Positions 7,508 through 50,838 of a stretch of DNA of 64,000 bases are shown in pieces. Below the pieces are notes generated by a model that searched no databases, was not told the DNA's origin, and saw nothing but the letters and a program-made list of their open reading frames with translations. Each line of letters opens with the position of its first letter. Positions within the stretch are counted from its first letter, which is position 1. This DNA is from Pezicula radicicola (taxonomy: Eukaryota > Ascomycota > Leotiomycetes > Helotiales > Dermateaceae). Made by a program: the position numbers and the translations under genes. The stretch covers positions 554,827-618,826 of the forward strand of contig PDUO01000003.1 of assembly GCA_003008705.1 (NCBI GenBank), written 5' to 3'.

Positions 7508-8899
7508 TCAACCGAAACGGACAGAACCTTGACGTTGTGGATGAGATCCGGGAGCAGGCACTCCAAACTTCGGACGCGGTCGAAGAGATGCAGCATATTT
7601 AGCTATACGATCCGCTGCCTCGTTTTGTTTCCTTGGTATGTGCCAAAAGGATATATTTTCACAGCGTTCAACTTGGAGCAACCGAAGTCTTTTGAGTAAA
7701 ATTTCCCAGAGATCTTGATTTTTTATCCATTCCCCAGTGCGCTTCTTCCACCCATTATTTTCCCAGGACTTGGCCCAGTCCGTAGCGCCATCTACGACAT
7801 ACGTAGAATCGGTCGTGATGATCAGATGAGCGGATTCTTTTGGACCGCAGAAATTCATCTCCTCATCTGTCCGCGCAAATTCAAGAGCTGCAACAACGGC
7901 GCGAAGTTCAGCTCGGTTGCTCGTGTGTTTGTGAGACCTACCAGTAGGGCCAACATCTTCTAGACGAAAGTAAAATTGGCCATTGATAGTATGGGCTCCT
8001 CTTGGCGGGGTCCACGGCTTCGGGATAGTGGAGTGCTGGTAGACAAAGCCACAGCCGGCTTCTGGGTCTTCCCCGCCGTTGTTACTGCAAGATCCATCCG
8101 TAAACATAAGCCTACTACAACGATTATGAAGCCCAATAAAAGACTGCCCATTCTTATGTTCGAAGAGTTCTCGAGGAGTGGAACCATGGGCATTGAAAAC
8201 CTTAGGGTATGTCTTCGGGAGGTGCTTGGGTCTGTCTCCTGATGAAGCCGAGCTCTCTGTAGTTCGGGGTTGGTCCTGAATTGGCTGCAGTCCGTTATGG
8301 GAGAGTGAATCATTGTCAACTCTTCGCCTCCCTGCGCGGGCGGCCTCCTGCTCTTCTTCCTTGCGCGACCGTTTCCGTACGACAGGTGCTCCGTGGCTTT
8401 GTCGCGTATATGGCAACTTTTCGGGGTCGATATCTTGGGGTAGATCCATACGGTCCCAATTCGCAGAGAGGGAGACCGTGTTGGATACATGAATCATAGT
8501 CTTCAGTTCTTCCTGTATCTGAGACTTGGACCAGCCAGGTTTGGCATTCTCTGGAAGCAAGGCCCGCCGCACATAATCCTTCAGGGACGCTGTCCATTCT
8601 ACGCCCTCTTTCCGTTCAAAAATTGTAGCCCAGCATTCTTCACGAATGTGATCGTAAAGTCTATTTCTTGAGTCAAACTTGGCTCTACAGTGATTGCAGA
8701 TCTGGCGAGCATTTTCATAAGACAGACGGACAGTTATGGCTTCCTCCGCTGTTATAGCTGCCCTGTAATCTGCCTCAGCTACGTCAAGGGTAGCCTTAGC
8801 TCTTATTGTCCGAATGCGCGCTTGGGCGCGTTCTTCCTCCAGCGTCAATGAAGGCATTACAATCGCAAGCCTACAAAAGGCGTCAGGATATGGAGCCAT
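7508..8899 (-). CDS. Ribonuclease H1-like domain protein
   Basis: Single-exon frame of 463 aa. The first ATG is at 8899; a second in-frame ATG at 8857 (MPSLTLEEERAQ) is an equally good start. The N-terminal half is charged and holds one Cys2-His-Cys-like unit (CNHC..H..C, about residues 67-89). The C-terminal third is an RNase H fold with the four acidic catalytic positions in order: MFTDGSC, SNRAELRAV, TDSTYVVDG, NEAADRIAK. This predicts cleavage of RNA in RNA:DNA hybrids. Such standalone proteins are common in ascomycetes, often expanded and linked to NUDIX or HET genes. No reverse transcriptase is attached and no RIP decay is seen, so it is not a retroelement remnant. The cellular role is unknown. 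Confidence 0.85.
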   Translation of the reverse strand: MAPYPDAFCRLAIVMPSLTLEEERAQARIRTIRAKATLDVAEADYRAAITAEEAITVRLSYENARQICNHCRAKFDSRNRLYDHIREECWATIFERKEGVEWTASLKDYVRRALLPENAKPGWSKSQIQEELKTMIHVSNTVSLSANWDRMDLPQDIDPEKLPYTRQSHGAPVVRKRSRKEEEQEAARAGRRRVDNDSLSHNGLQPIQDQPRTTESSASSGDRPKHLPKTYPKVFNAHGSTPRELFEHKNGQSFIGLHNRCSRLMFTDGSCSNNGGEDPEAGCGFVYQHSTIPKPWTPPRGAHTINGQFYFRLEDVGPTGRSHKHTSNRAELRAVVAALEFARTDEEMNFCGPKESAHLIITTDSTYVVDGATDWAKSWENNGWKKRTGEWIKNQDLWEILLKRLRLLQVERCENISFWHIPRKQNEAADRIAKYAASLRPRPKFGVPAPGSHPQRQGSVRFG

Positions 8900-9417
8900 T
8901 GCAATTTGCCTAGATCACAGCTGTGACTGTTGGGTGATGGTGAAAGTAGGATGGTTTTTGATGAGCTAAGAGCCGTTATCGCAGGTATTCCGTGCCCTCC
9001 AACACCAGCTCGCCCAATTGTTCCAGTATCAATGCATAAATTAGCCTCCACTTGGTATTCCTCAAGCTCAACCCAATTCACCTCCCCAATCCAAAGCTTG
9101 ATGTTGCTCAACGTATTATCCCAGCCCCTGAGGTCGATGTGTCCAGCGCATTTCGCGCGATGGCTAAGGCTGTCAAATCTGCGTAGGAGGGAGGGTGTCG
9201 TTTCCAAAAATGACTGTAATCGCGTTGATTGTGTATCGAGATATGTAGGTAGCATGCAGGTACGAACTTGTAGCGAGGGGTCAAAAAGGACGCGGGGTTT
9301 CAGCCCACCCCGGATTTGAGGTTCTGGGTCCAACCAATCAGAGCGATGTAGTCTAAGGTATGTACCTAAATCGTGTATCGAAGAATGGAACAGAAATGGG
9401 GATCTGAGAAAATCCAA
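8857..9417 (-). CDS. Hypothetical protein, 186 aa
   Basis: Continuous frame ending at 8857, overlapping the RNase H start by 43 nt in another frame. Contains charged and Trp-bearing segments (LRGWDNTLSNIKLWIGEV) that look coding, but no domain is recognised and no intron is needed. It may be an upstream exon or a small separate gene. The opposite strand is also open for 129 codons across much of it, so the call is weak. Confidence 0.3.
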   Translation of the reverse strand: MDFLRSPFLFHSSIHDLGTYLRLHRSDWLDPEPQIRGGLKPRVLFDPSLQVRTCMLPTYLDTQSTRLQSFLETTPSLLRRFDSLSHRAKCAGHIDLRGWDNTLSNIKLWIGEVNWVELEEYQVEANLCIDTGTIGRAGVGGHGIPAITALSSSKTILLSPSPNSHSCDLGKLQWLHILTPFVGLRL

Positions 9418-12325: not shown

Positions 12326-12490
12326 GTCTTCGTGGCTCAGTTGGTTGTAAGTAACACATAAAAATATCCATGACTCAACACATTTTCTAACACCTAAAAC
12401 AGAGAGCGTTGGTCTCATATTACACATATGATTGAGTAGTTCACTACTTGGGCCATCCAAAGGTCGTGAGTTCGAGTCTCACCGAGGACA
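12326..12490 (+). tRNA. tRNA-Met(CAT), elongator type, interrupted twice
   Basis: The mature parts fold as a normal 74-nt tRNA. Acceptor stem GTCTTCG pairs with CGAGGAC (one G-T wobble) with discriminator A at 12490. D-stem is GCTC/GAGC, anticodon CAT at 12416-12418, T-arm GTGAG-TTCGAGT-CTCAC. The A box (TGGCTCAGTTGG) and B box (GAGTTCGAGTC) are present. A 35-nt intron at 12420-12454 sits one base 3' of the anticodon, the canonical place for a protein-spliced tRNA intron. A second insertion, 12347-12402, splits the D-loop. Without both, the D-arm reads GCTCAGTTGGTTAGAGC. The 31/39 T-T mismatch also occurs in yeast tRNA-Met. T-runs follow at 12496-12510. The gene may be functional only if the D-loop insert is removed; otherwise it is a pseudogene. 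Confidence 0.85.
12347..12402 (+). other. 56-nt spliceosomal-intron-like insert in the tRNA D-loop
   Basis: Starts GTAAGT (consensus 5' splice site), carries TTCTAAC about 20 nt before its end (consensus fungal branch site) and ends AAACAG. Its length matches the protein-gene introns of this window. Exact removal restores a perfect D-loop. Confidence 0.75.
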
Positions 12491-12495
12491 TTTAA

Positions 12496-12510
12496 TTTTT
12501 TATATTTTTT
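12496..12510 (+). terminator. RNA polymerase III terminator
   Basis: T5 (12496-12500) and T6 (12505-12510) runs begin 6 nt after the tRNA discriminator base. Confidence 0.7.
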
Positions 12511-12758: not shown

Positions 12759-15111
12759 ATGCTCTGCGAGATCTGTCAAAATATTGTCTTTAAAAAACCA
12801 AGCCAGCTGGATCTTGATGGAATTGAATTCATAAATGATTGGGCAACGGATCCTTATTCTATGCTTTATATTCATCAGAAGTCTGAAAGCGCCTTAAAGC
12901 AATCTGCCGACCATGGATGTCATCTCTGTGCCATGCTTTGGGCATGGTTATTTGACGTCAGGGAACCTAGTATTGACATCTCTGATCGTCAATGCATCCA
13001 AGTACACCAAGTAATGTTGCCGAAGTAGTCCTACGCAGAGATTGGCCGATTGAATGGACTGCCAATACAGCGTGTGGATTGCTGATTGCTGAACCGATAG
13101 AAATTCGCTGCGGGGAGTTTCACAACAGTGTTTCTGGTGGAATGCCTCTTTCTGGTATGTACGATAGGGATATGCGATGCATCGTTTCTAACTACCTACA
13201 TGCGTAGATAAGCTAGCGGGACTTTGCACTTCCGTATGCGCCTCCCCATCCAATTCACAAGACCTCTTGAGCGGAAGTCCAACACTAGCAGACAACTCCA
13301 CGGGGTCTAGGAAAAACCTCGAGTTAGCTAAACTCTGGCTCCAGACATGTCTCTCTAAACATAGTAAATACGGCTGCGAAAGATCCCCCGATGCACCTCC
13401 ACCCCTTCCAACTCGAGTAATAGACTTACAAGACCCGGAGTGCCCAATACTCCGAGAGACATGTGGACTGCGCCATGAGTATCTGACGCTCAGCTATTGT
13501 TGGGGTCAAGGGAAGCGACTATTGACCGAAAAGGGATCTGGATGCTACGAAGAATTCCGCCAAAAGATTCCGGTCGATGAAACAATGCCCAAGACATTCA
13601 AAGAGGCTTTCCAGGTCACCAAGGCTCTTGGGTATCGATATCTTTGGATAGATGCCCTGTGCATTGTTCAAGATGACTTCGATGATGTTCAAAAAGAAAT
13701 GGCTCAAATGGGGGAGATATACCGAAGCTCTGTCCTGACAATCTCAGCAGCGAGTGGTTCTGACACGAGTTCAGGGCTCTTCGTTGAGCGGGACCCTCGT
13801 TTGTACAAGCCCTGCAATGTAACACTCACAATGATGGAGGGTGAGGAACGTCTACAAGGAACTATATCCATCCATGTCTTCGACCACGAATATGAAAACC
13901 CACTTTCGAAGCGAGGTTGGGTGCTCCAGGAAGAAATCCTATCAACGCGGTCTCTCACTTTCGGCCCTTATGGGATAAAGTGGCGCTGTATGGCTGAGTC
14001 TTGCAGCGAGGCAAGGCCGCAATTATATCGGGAAGACGACGGTCAGAAACCAATTCGTTATGAGCAAGTCGCCTTTCTAGATAACATGCGTTGGTTAGTC
14101 AGAAGGCCGGACATTTTCTTGAAGCTGGAGAAAGCATCCGGTCGTCGACACAATCATTTCGATGCCTGGTATGAGCTAGTGGGAGCTTATAGCAACCGTG
14201 AGTTAACGGTTTTTTCCGACAAACTACCTGCAATTGCAGGTTTGGCAAGTCTTATGGCAAATAACTTCAGTTGCACCTATAGTGGAGGACTGTGGAAAGA
14301 AGATTTACAGATAGGGTTAGTCTGGTATGTGGTCGGTTGTGAGGGCAGTAGCAACGCCTATTATGGACCTGTTGAGGGCAGTTCTGACCAGGAATACATT
14401 GCACCATCCTGGTCCTGGGCATCAATGACTAAGAGGCAGATAAGTTTCTGCCGCTACGAAGTGAACTCAAGACATATACCAGAAGAGGGCATGCAAATCG
14501 TGGATTGGAATTTCTCATACCCAAAAGGATCACTGGTACCATTCGGTCAGGTGAAGTCTGGGGTCCTGACTGTGAAGGGGCAACTTCTAAAGGCTTTGCT
14601 GGTACCATGTCTAGATTCATGGTATTCTGAAGCACAAACCACACATTTTGGCTCTCTTTGGCGGTGCCATGCAGTTGATCCACACCAAGGATTTATCTTT
14701 GGAGATGTTGCTCTCGACTCATTGGAAGCACGTCAAAGCCTTTTTGACCGTTATCACGACCTTTCCTACCCTGGCCAAGACCTTTCTTACGGTTACCAAA
14801 GCTGGGGAGAACCATGTGAACTCAAAACCGGAATGAAGCCAACGCTTTGGTTCATGTCTAAAGCTCAACCAATATGGTGTTTACTCTGCCTTGTTAGAGA
14901 CAAATGGGGGAAGCGACAAGTTTTAGGCCTTGTGTTAACACCACATAATATTGAGAAACAAGAGTATCGGAGGATTGGTCTTATTTTCATCAATAAAGAA
15001 AGCGTTTTTCCCTGGACCGAAACTTGGGCCCCATCCTTTTGGAGACGTTCTGGTGGTAGAAGCTATAAAGAAGACCGCGACGAGGCTCATAAACTAGTAC
15101 ATATTGTTTAA
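12759..15111 (+). CDS. HET-domain (heterokaryon incompatibility) protein, with apparent frameshift
   Basis: The N-terminus from ATG 12759 has CEIC and GCHLCAML cysteine pairs typical of HET proteins. The frame closes at 13026-13028 while the next frame (VVLRRDWPIEW..) carries on. No GT-AG intron of 40 nt or more that I tested rejoins them, so a one-base deletion near 12990-13025 is likely. A good intron follows at 13155-13207 (GTATGT, TTCTAAC, GCGTAG), joining PLS to DKLAGLCTS. The large last exon has the HET core: YLTLSYCWG, YRYLWIDALCIVQDD, EMAQMGEIYRSSVLTISA, then RGWVLQEEILSTRSL. HET proteins trigger cell death on non-self fusion. The domain is intact; only the N-terminal part is broken or mis-sequenced. 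The long distal exon could still be translated from a later start. Confidence 0.8.
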
Positions 15112-50048: not shown

Positions 50049-50741
50049 TCACGCGGCCTCGCTGTGCCGCCCGGCCTCGATCCGCGCGATCGCCTCGTCG
50101 GCGGTGACCACATCGCCGAAGAGAAGCATGTTCGCTAGGCTGGCGTTGTGCACCGCGTCGCCGCGCGTGGCGTTGCCGTCCTGCACGAACAGGACGTGGT
50201 AGCCCATCTGCATCGCGTCCCGCATCGTCGACTCGCAGCAGCAGTTCGTGGTGGTGCCAGTGACGATCAGCGTGTCGATGCCTCTGGCCTTCAGGAACGA
50301 GTCGAGATCGCACGTGCCCGGAATGAAGGCGCTCCATCGCGTCTTCGGCACAATCAGGTCCTCCGGCTGGACGTCGAGGCCGGGCCACAGGGCATGCTGC
50401 TCCGCGCCGACGGTGAACGCCGCCCGCATCCGCTCGACTGCATCGGGAGTCATGCGGTCGTAATGCGATCCCCAATGATGTGGCTCGTCGGGATCGATCT
50501 TGTACTGGACGTAGGCAATAGTTCCCTCGGCAGACCGGAGCGCCCGCGACACGCGATTGACGTTCTCGACGATGCCGCGCGCGATCGGTACCTCCAGCAG
50601 CGACCCCTCGCCCATGAAGCCGACCTGGAGGTCGACCACGACATGCGCGGTCCGGGCCGGGTCGACTATGATCTTATGATGGCCGCCGCGCATCCAGGCG
50701 ACGCGATCGAGGACTTCGGTGGGAATGTAAGACTGATGCAT
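50049..50741 (-). CDS. Isochorismatase-family cysteine hydrolase, bacterial-like
   Basis: Intronless, 230 aa. The cysteine-hydrolase triad is in order: Asp in HVVVDLQVGF, Lys in IVPKTRWSAF, Cys in TGTTTNCCCEST; the usual cis-peptide segment is VTGTTT. RGIDTLIVTGTTTNCCCES and MRDAMQMGYHVLFVQDGNAT match the ureidoacrylate/biuret-hydrolase-like branch better than true isochorismatases, so an amide or ureide substrate is plausible but not shown. Base composition is extreme: about two-thirds GC with GC-ending codons, while DNA on both sides is AT-rich and RIP-decayed. The product and codon choice look proteobacterial. It is transcribed divergently from the Zn2Cys6 gene at 51304. The GC-rich character continues past the stop to about 49900. 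No RIP-type damage is visible. Horizontal acquisition is the best explanation. Confidence 0.9.
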   Translation of the reverse strand: MHQSYIPTEVLDRVAWMRGGHHKIIVDPARTAHVVVDLQVGFMGEGSLLEVPIARGIVENVNRVSRALRSAEGTIAYVQYKIDPDEPHHWGSHYDRMTPDAVERMRAAFTVGAEQHALWPGLDVQPEDLIVPKTRWSAFIPGTCDLDSFLKARGIDTLIVTGTTTNCCCESTMRDAMQMGYHVLFVQDGNATRGDAVHNASLANMLLFGDVVTADEAIARIEAGRHSEAA

Positions 50742-50838
50742 GGTTAGGGTTAATTGGAAAGGTTTGTTTAGGCGATAAGATAAGACTGCGAGGAGATTTG
50801 TTTGGCCATTTCATCTTTAGGGAAACGTTGGCTTAAAT

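Follow-up and report, generated by a model that had tools for sequence, protein, structure and literature searches.

The subject of this report is a 64,000-nucleotide (nt) stretch of the genome of the ascomycete Pezicula radicicola (contig PDUO01000003.1), called the window throughout, and within it an elongator tRNA-Met(CAT) gene that is interrupted twice. Besides the ordinary 35-nt intron of its anticodon loop, the gene carries a 56-nt GT-AG insert in its D-loop, and this insert is very probably a spliceosomal intron (U2-type) in a working gene. The same genome holds inserts of this kind in at least 20 other tRNA genes. Because the GT-AG ends, the branch site, the exact restoration of the tRNA upon removal and the recurrence in 21 genes all point the same way, a spliceosomal intron is strongly supported, and we conclude from the sequences that all 21 inserts are best read as spliceosomal introns of tRNA genes, corresponding to those of fungal U6 and U3 RNA.

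Interrupted elongator tRNA-Met genes

Once both introns are out, the window gene has a CAT anticodon and a complete cloverleaf (Table 1), and excision of the D-loop insert joins GCTC-AGTTGGTTA-GAGC, a complete D-arm. The first-pass annotation had described a complete elongator tRNA-Met with these two interruptions, an insert marked by GTAAGT, TTCTAAC and a terminal AG, and a D-arm restored by exact removal; the exon and intron boundaries, the signals (all within 12347-12402) and the D-arm were all borne out. It had also equated the length of the insert with that of the mRNA introns of the window. The insert does fall inside their range of 48-63 nt, but it equals none of the four that were placed (48, 49, 52 and 63 nt, a small sample to set beside the 50-60 nt of the tRNA inserts), three of these having been placed by aligning a related protein, the other through a dipeptidase motif. 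ARAGORN called no tRNA on the window, and the Rfam tRNA model gave the gene 13.1 bits, over part of its length only, against a cut-off of 29.

A comparison with the other tRNA-Met genes, which had been proposed along with that description, was decisive. In the genome searched (61,044,626 bases on 152 contigs), four elongator tRNA-Met genes were found and all four have a D-loop insert: the window gene (C65), two further full-length copies (C77 and C25) that came from a DNA search with the whole window gene, and a fourth (C81) that came from T-arm/acceptor and anticodon-arm patterns. The four inserts are 54-59 nt long, start with GTAAG, hold a branch motif with its presumed branch A 12 nt before the end of the intron, and finish with AG. 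No uninterrupted elongator tRNA-Met was found by four genome-wide pattern searches. The T-arm/acceptor pattern, at up to three mismatches, matched the four interrupted genes only; the anticodon-arm pattern, at up to two mismatches, gave 25 matches (30 for its reversed control), with a B box within 130 nt in the four tRNA-Met genes only; the D-arm pattern, at up to two mismatches, gave 16 matches, none of them elongator Met (nine tRNA-Ile(AAT), three of Lys(TTT) type, one Asn and three incomplete as tRNA genes); and TCTCATAA combined with a B box, a pattern limited to genes that lack an anticodon intron, had no match. A genome-wide tRNA family search, with 62 matches, contains none of the four tRNA-Met genes, and the split tRNA-Met pattern had no match in viral contigs. 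At C7:18348 there is a decayed tRNA-Met relic, in which the anticodon arm and intron are recognisable and the acceptor and T-arm are lost.

C65, C77 and C25 agree in 74 of 74 positions of the mature tRNA. In contrast, the interiors of their D-loop inserts, which have their ends and branch site in common, are 42-46% identical, the level obtained on shuffling the interiors of C65 and C77 (mean 44%, range 23-56%). Between the anticodon introns of the three genes, identity is 80-91%. Since unchanged exons thus surround insert interiors at the shuffled level, the exons of tRNA-Met are under constraint and only the splice signals are kept in the inserts. Separate insertions at one site may have taken place in the three genes. 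The mature sequence of C81 has six differences in 74 positions, four of which make up two compensated pairs, in the acceptor stem and the anticodon stem, and its insert has moved by 2 nt at both ends (GGTTAG/GTAAGA...TACTAAC...TTAG/AGCG), is still GT-AG and leaves the D-arm the same.

Table 1. Anatomy of the interrupted elongator tRNA-Met gene, in positions of the window
Feature	Position	Strand	Remark
Elongator tRNA-Met(CAT) gene, two introns	12326..12490	+	mature-tRNA model 75.9 bits, with the window gene itself among the building sequences of the model
CAACAAACA, upstream motif common to ordinary tRNA genes of the genome	12312..12320	+	
Exon 1: 5' strands of acceptor stem and D-stem, most of D-loop	12326..12346	+	
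Box A (TGGCTCAGTTGG), uninterrupted, directly 5' of D-loop intron	12333..12344	+	sequence read; assigned by the box A consensus
D-loop GT-AG intron, spliceosomal type, 56 nt	12347..12402	+	5' splice site GTAAGT, 3' splice site CAG
Branch-site motif TTCTAAC	12385..12391	+	presumed branch A 12390, 12 nt before intron end
Exon 2: remaining D-arm, anticodon stem 5' strand, CTCATA	12403..12419	+	
Anticodon-loop intron of the ordinary kind (35 nt, at 37/38)	12420..12454	+	
Exon 3: from the 3' strand of the anticodon stem through variable region and T-arm to the 3' acceptor strand and discriminator A	12455..12490	+	
Box B core (GTTCGAGTC), uninterrupted	12470..12478	+	sequence read; assigned by the box B consensus
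T6 run, probable RNA polymerase III (Pol III) terminator	12496..12501	+	

Inserts in other tRNA genes and their splice signals

Seventeen further interrupted tRNA genes were found (six Asp, three Arg, three Lys, two Val, two Leu and one Thr), which brings the total with tRNA-Met to 21. Their GT-AG inserts, like those of the whole set 50-60 nt long, lie at sites other than that of tRNA-Met. Three interrupt the acceptor stem, after nucleotide 4 in Thr TGT, 6 in Leu CAG and 7 in Leu TAG; others follow nucleotide 9 (Lys TTT, two genes) or 10 (Arg TCT), or fall in the variable loop (Val TAC, two genes), in the T-stem (Arg ACG, Arg TCG and the six Asp GTC genes) or on the 3' side of the T-arm (Lys CTT). 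About ten different sites are thus occupied in at least 21 tRNA genes, spread over the acceptor stem, positions 9-11, the D-loop, the variable loop and the T-arm, and the canonical 37/38 position is not among them.

How the genes were found bears on what their splice signals can say. Ten of the 21 were reached via the family search, one Lys gene via the D-arm pattern and C81 via exon sequence, and C77 and C25 were picked by likeness to the whole window gene; splice signals played no part in the choice of any of these. The pattern that yielded the six Asp genes demanded the branch motif. The branch-motif pattern had 16 matches, of which ten fall in nine of the 21 genes (Arg ACG twice) and six were rejected, and two of the four matches of a further pattern were not taken as interrupted tRNA genes. 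C7:18348 and C2:1589670 were left out as decayed pieces of tRNA in which neither a first exon nor an acceptor stem could be recognised. Because the family search scored 63 of 2516 candidates (only part of its 62 matches being inspected by eye), 21 is a lower bound. Some search patterns required intact A and B boxes, and no claim is made that introns avoid these boxes. A genome scan for an A box, GTANGT and a B box 75-105 nt on, a spacing too short to detect tRNA-Met, gave no match, so that D-loop introns seem confined to tRNA-Met within the pattern shapes allowed. When an A box and GTAAG alone were sought, the 14 matches consisted of the four tRNA-Met genes and ten that are not tRNA-like.

Across the 21 inserts the 5' splice site reads GTANG without exception and GTAAG in 18, and the 3' end is YAG in 19. 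The branch motif, for which the U2-type criterion was CTRAY about 6-36 nt from the acceptor, is present 5-35 nt from the insert end in 19 of 21, as against a mean of 4.0 and a maximum of 11 in shuffles; GTAAG and the branch motif occur jointly in 16, as against a mean of 0.04 and a maximum of 2. With the six Asp genes set aside, the counts are 15 of 15 for GTAAG and 13 of 15 for the branch motif.

The exactness of the insertions was assessed in three ways. For the cloverleaf test, every segment of 40-90 nt was excised from each gene and the remaining cloverleaf was scored; for 17 of 21 genes, a single GT..AG excision was in the top-scoring set, which ran to 1-29 excisions. In the window gene 22 excisions tie for the top score, exactly one of them GT..AG. 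Paralog comparison fixes the boundaries independently of structure, and for five families the genome offers an uninterrupted paralog. The Asp gene C76 is uninterrupted, and some of the Arg, Lys and Leu genes have uninterrupted paralogs. GT..AG was among the one to five possible registers in all ten gene-paralog pairs and was the sole register in three, and Asp C98 (95 nt) and Leu(TAG) C74 (98 nt) become base-for-base equal to their uninterrupted paralogs after insert removal. Finally, ARAGORN, which was given the genes with made-up flanks, called five of the 21 uncut and all 21 after insert removal.

The tRNA-Asp genes have features of their own. Five uninterrupted Asp T-arms were met, of which one belongs to the complete gene C76 and four are 3'-half fragments; 3'-half Asp fragments lie downstream of four tRNA-Asp genes. 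A conserved stretch of about 45 nt (CTCTGAT..TTCATC..AAGTG..CACTTCTCATC) stands directly upstream of tRNA-Asp genes (L133, L134, L136, L137, L139, L140 and L148), preceded in several of them by the tRNA upstream motif, and could be a long leader or an extra non-GT-AG insert in the acceptor stem.

Transcription, splicing and alternative explanations

The interrupted genes look like genes transcribed by Pol III. A T-run lies downstream of 20 of the 21 (within the 30-70 nt of flank examined, the exception having 30 nt only), and the upstream motif CAACAAA precedes 13 of them, compared with 19 of the top 30 ordinary tRNA genes from the family search and 0.9% of random window pieces; it is from these features, with the A and B boxes, that we infer the polymerase. 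On this basis, Pol III would read the window gene from its intact boxes through to the T-run, GTAAGT and TTCTAAC would be bound by U1 and U2, and the spliceosome would take out the 56 nt and so restore the D-arm, after which the tRNA splicing endonuclease would cut out the ordinary 35-nt anticodon intron. The spliceosome probably acts first of the two, since its step is nuclear and since the endonuclease subunit Sen54 contacts the D-arm of the tRNA, according to the accessible text of PMC4090602. It is likely that every elongator tRNA-Met of this fungus has to pass the spliceosome and then the tRNA endonuclease, and that its tRNA genes serve as landing sites for newly gained spliceosomal introns, twins with and without the intron occurring in one genome. 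Since eukaryotic tRNA finders do not seek such introns, other genomes may conceal the phenomenon.

It might be asked whether the spliceosome acts here on RNA polymerase II (Pol II) transcripts of the tRNA loci, as Pol II is the usual source of its substrates. This is unlikely in view of the A and B boxes, the T-runs and an upstream motif as frequent as in ordinary tRNA genes, and U6 and U3 show Pol II to be unnecessary. The same two RNAs tell against the first-pass statement that Pol III transcripts are not known as spliceosome substrates. Fungal U6 is a Pol III transcript. So is U3 in fungi, as set out in PMC5832005, and both are named in the literature as carriers of introns. There is also only a small chance that the interrupted genes are broken copies, with the working elongator tRNA-Met coming from uninterrupted genes elsewhere. 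The uninterrupted Asp gene and the uninterrupted paralogs of some Arg, Lys and Leu genes would suit such a view, as would the presence of the decayed tRNA-Met relic, but every one of the four complete tRNA-Met genes found has an insert, the patterns gave no uninterrupted one, and dead genes would not keep their exons perfectly amid randomised inserts in three copies, nor show the compensated pairs of C81. The relic itself displays what decay looks like in this genome. For the same reasons (74 of 74 exon positions in three copies, inserts at the shuffled level, compensation in C81) the freshly broken copy considered in the first-pass annotation is contradicted, and a lone broken copy is ruled out by the four interrupted genes.

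Removal of the D-loop insert by the tRNA splicing endonuclease, in the manner of the ectopic bulge-helix-bulge (BHB) introns of Cyanidioschyzon, is highly improbable. Position 20/21 is a known site of BHB-type disruption in C. merolae, in the accessible text of PMC3978253, and an endonuclease intron does sit in the same genes. In a relaxed BHB test, however, the central 4-bp helix occurred in three of 21 genes, where chance would give 4.06, and no gene had the full motif; the test is a weak one, as the canonical-intron control gave the central helix in two of four and the full motif in none of four. Moreover, BHB processing would explain neither the GT..AG, GTAAG and CTAAY found at about ten sites nor the 2-nt shift of C81. 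An artefact of assembly or contamination, to which the two very different U6 genes of the assembly might lend some colour, is scarcely credible for 21 genes on many contigs (several above 0.5 Mb) in which inserts and sites vary and GT-AG stays constant. Two other kinds of element were rejected. Group I and group II introns have a catalytic core of some hundreds of bases, to be compared with inserts of 50-60 nt. As to an introner family, which the earlier reading had offered as an alternative to a spliceosomal intron, the longest word common to two inserts across tRNA families is 12 nt and lies within the range of shuffles (median 10, maximum 15), and a DNA search of low sensitivity found no extra copies of the 56-nt insert in the genome; the spliceosomal half of that suggestion stands, with the signals and the 21 genes behind it, and the introner half is not supported.

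A number of observations do weigh against spliceosomal introns in working tRNA genes. CTRAY is missing from two of the 21 inserts, and the 3' end is AAG in two. The GT-AG excision lies outside the top cloverleaf set in four genes (two Val and two Lys(TTT)), where it still gives full acceptor and T-stems, and each of the four Met genes has a large top set, of 22-29 excisions. After insert removal the ARAGORN anticodon agrees with the inferred one in only 16 of 21: the window gene is called Leu(gag), C77 Leu and C81 Thr (C81 being called Met uncut), Leu C90 is called SeC (selenocysteine), and Leu C74 is called Leu with another anticodon. These five mismatches arise because the tool places the anticodon intron differently. 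Interrupted genes that have uninterrupted paralogs could be dispensable, an uninterrupted tRNA-Met differing at more positions could escape the patterns, and the genome sequence may be incomplete, as the tRNA inventory is.

Neighbouring features and relation to known systems

Elsewhere in the window, a HET-domain (heterokaryon incompatibility) open frame lies near the tRNA gene at 13192-15111 (PF06985), and an open reading frame (ORF) with an RNase H domain (PF00075) occupies 7508-8914 on the minus strand. An intact isochorismatase-domain ORF of 55-66% G+C (50049-50810, minus strand; PF00857, 3.2e-35), possibly of bacterial origin, adjoins about 2 kb of 21-26% G+C. The best organism-named match of the sphingolipid C9-methyltransferase of the window is Coleophoma crateriformis, at 85% identity over 88% of the query, which is suggestive of a filamentous ascomycete and perhaps of a leotiomycete.

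In the textbook view, nuclear tRNA introns belong to the tRNA splicing endonuclease alone. If the genes described here work, the spliceosome would also make tRNAs, from transcripts very probably lacking a cap and a Pol II tail, and protein synthesis would be directly dependent on the spliceosome. The genes would provide natural tests of the substrate requirements of the spliceosome (tRNA-Thr has only 4 nt of mature tRNA 5' of its intron) and of which splicing pathway comes first on an RNA that undergoes both, as well as a test case for intron gain, as two paralog pairs differ by one GT..AG segment alone. Counts of tRNA genes in such genomes can be wrong. Among the titles and opening lines of abstracts listed from the open-licence literature, none reports spliceosomal introns in tRNA genes; most subscription papers lie outside that literature, so this is no proof of absence. 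For tRNAscan-SE 2.0, a search for noncanonical introns is described for archaea, and the string "spliceosom" does not appear in the accessible part of the text (PMC8450103).

The inserts can be set beside several known kinds of intron. Canonical nuclear tRNA introns (37/38, endonuclease) co-occur with them in many of the interrupted genes and differ from them in position, in the GT-AG rule, in the branch site and in length. The ectopic tRNA introns of Cyanidioschyzon, which also has permuted tRNAs, and the ectopic tRNA introns of the Guillardia nucleomorph lie at non-canonical sites that include the D-loop, as here; in the accessible text of PMC3978253, the Cyanidioschyzon introns are BHB-mediated, with no GT-AG or branch sites described, and those of Guillardia are said often to have no defined BHB. 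Introners would account for many new introns in one genome, but the tRNA inserts form no sequence family.

Also comparable with the tRNA inserts are the introns of fungal U6 small nuclear RNA (snRNA), reportedly treated by Tani and Ohshima in 1989 and by Canzler in 2016, which are likewise short introns in a structured RNA transcribed by Pol III. Their host is an snRNA, whereas here it is a tRNA, most transcripts of which have an additional endonuclease intron. In the present genome, a U6 snRNA gene (G000:C3:394362-394523, minus strand; L115) has a GT-AG insert, GTGGGT...TTAAC...TTAG, after ATTAGCATG, and on comparison with U6 sequence, the stretch upstream suggests a second intron (GTGAGT...CTAAT...ATAG) nearer its 5' end. 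Another U6 gene, at C146:17702, differs strongly from this one and lacks an insert.

A further parallel is with fungal U3, for which the accessible text of PMC5832005 reports introns in 138 of 310 genes, the branch motif RCTRAC in 129 of the 138, and intron-plus and intron-minus copies coexisting in eight genomes; U3 and U6 were named there, in 2017, as the only small structured RNAs often interrupted. As in the tRNA inserts, GT-AG ends are combined in U3 with an RCTRAY-type branch about 15 nt from the acceptor, with intron-plus and intron-minus paralogs, and with sliding (PMC5832005). U3 introns average 92 nt, compared with 50-60 nt for the tRNA inserts, and the host RNA differs. The type of intron is a known one, and tRNA is new as its host.
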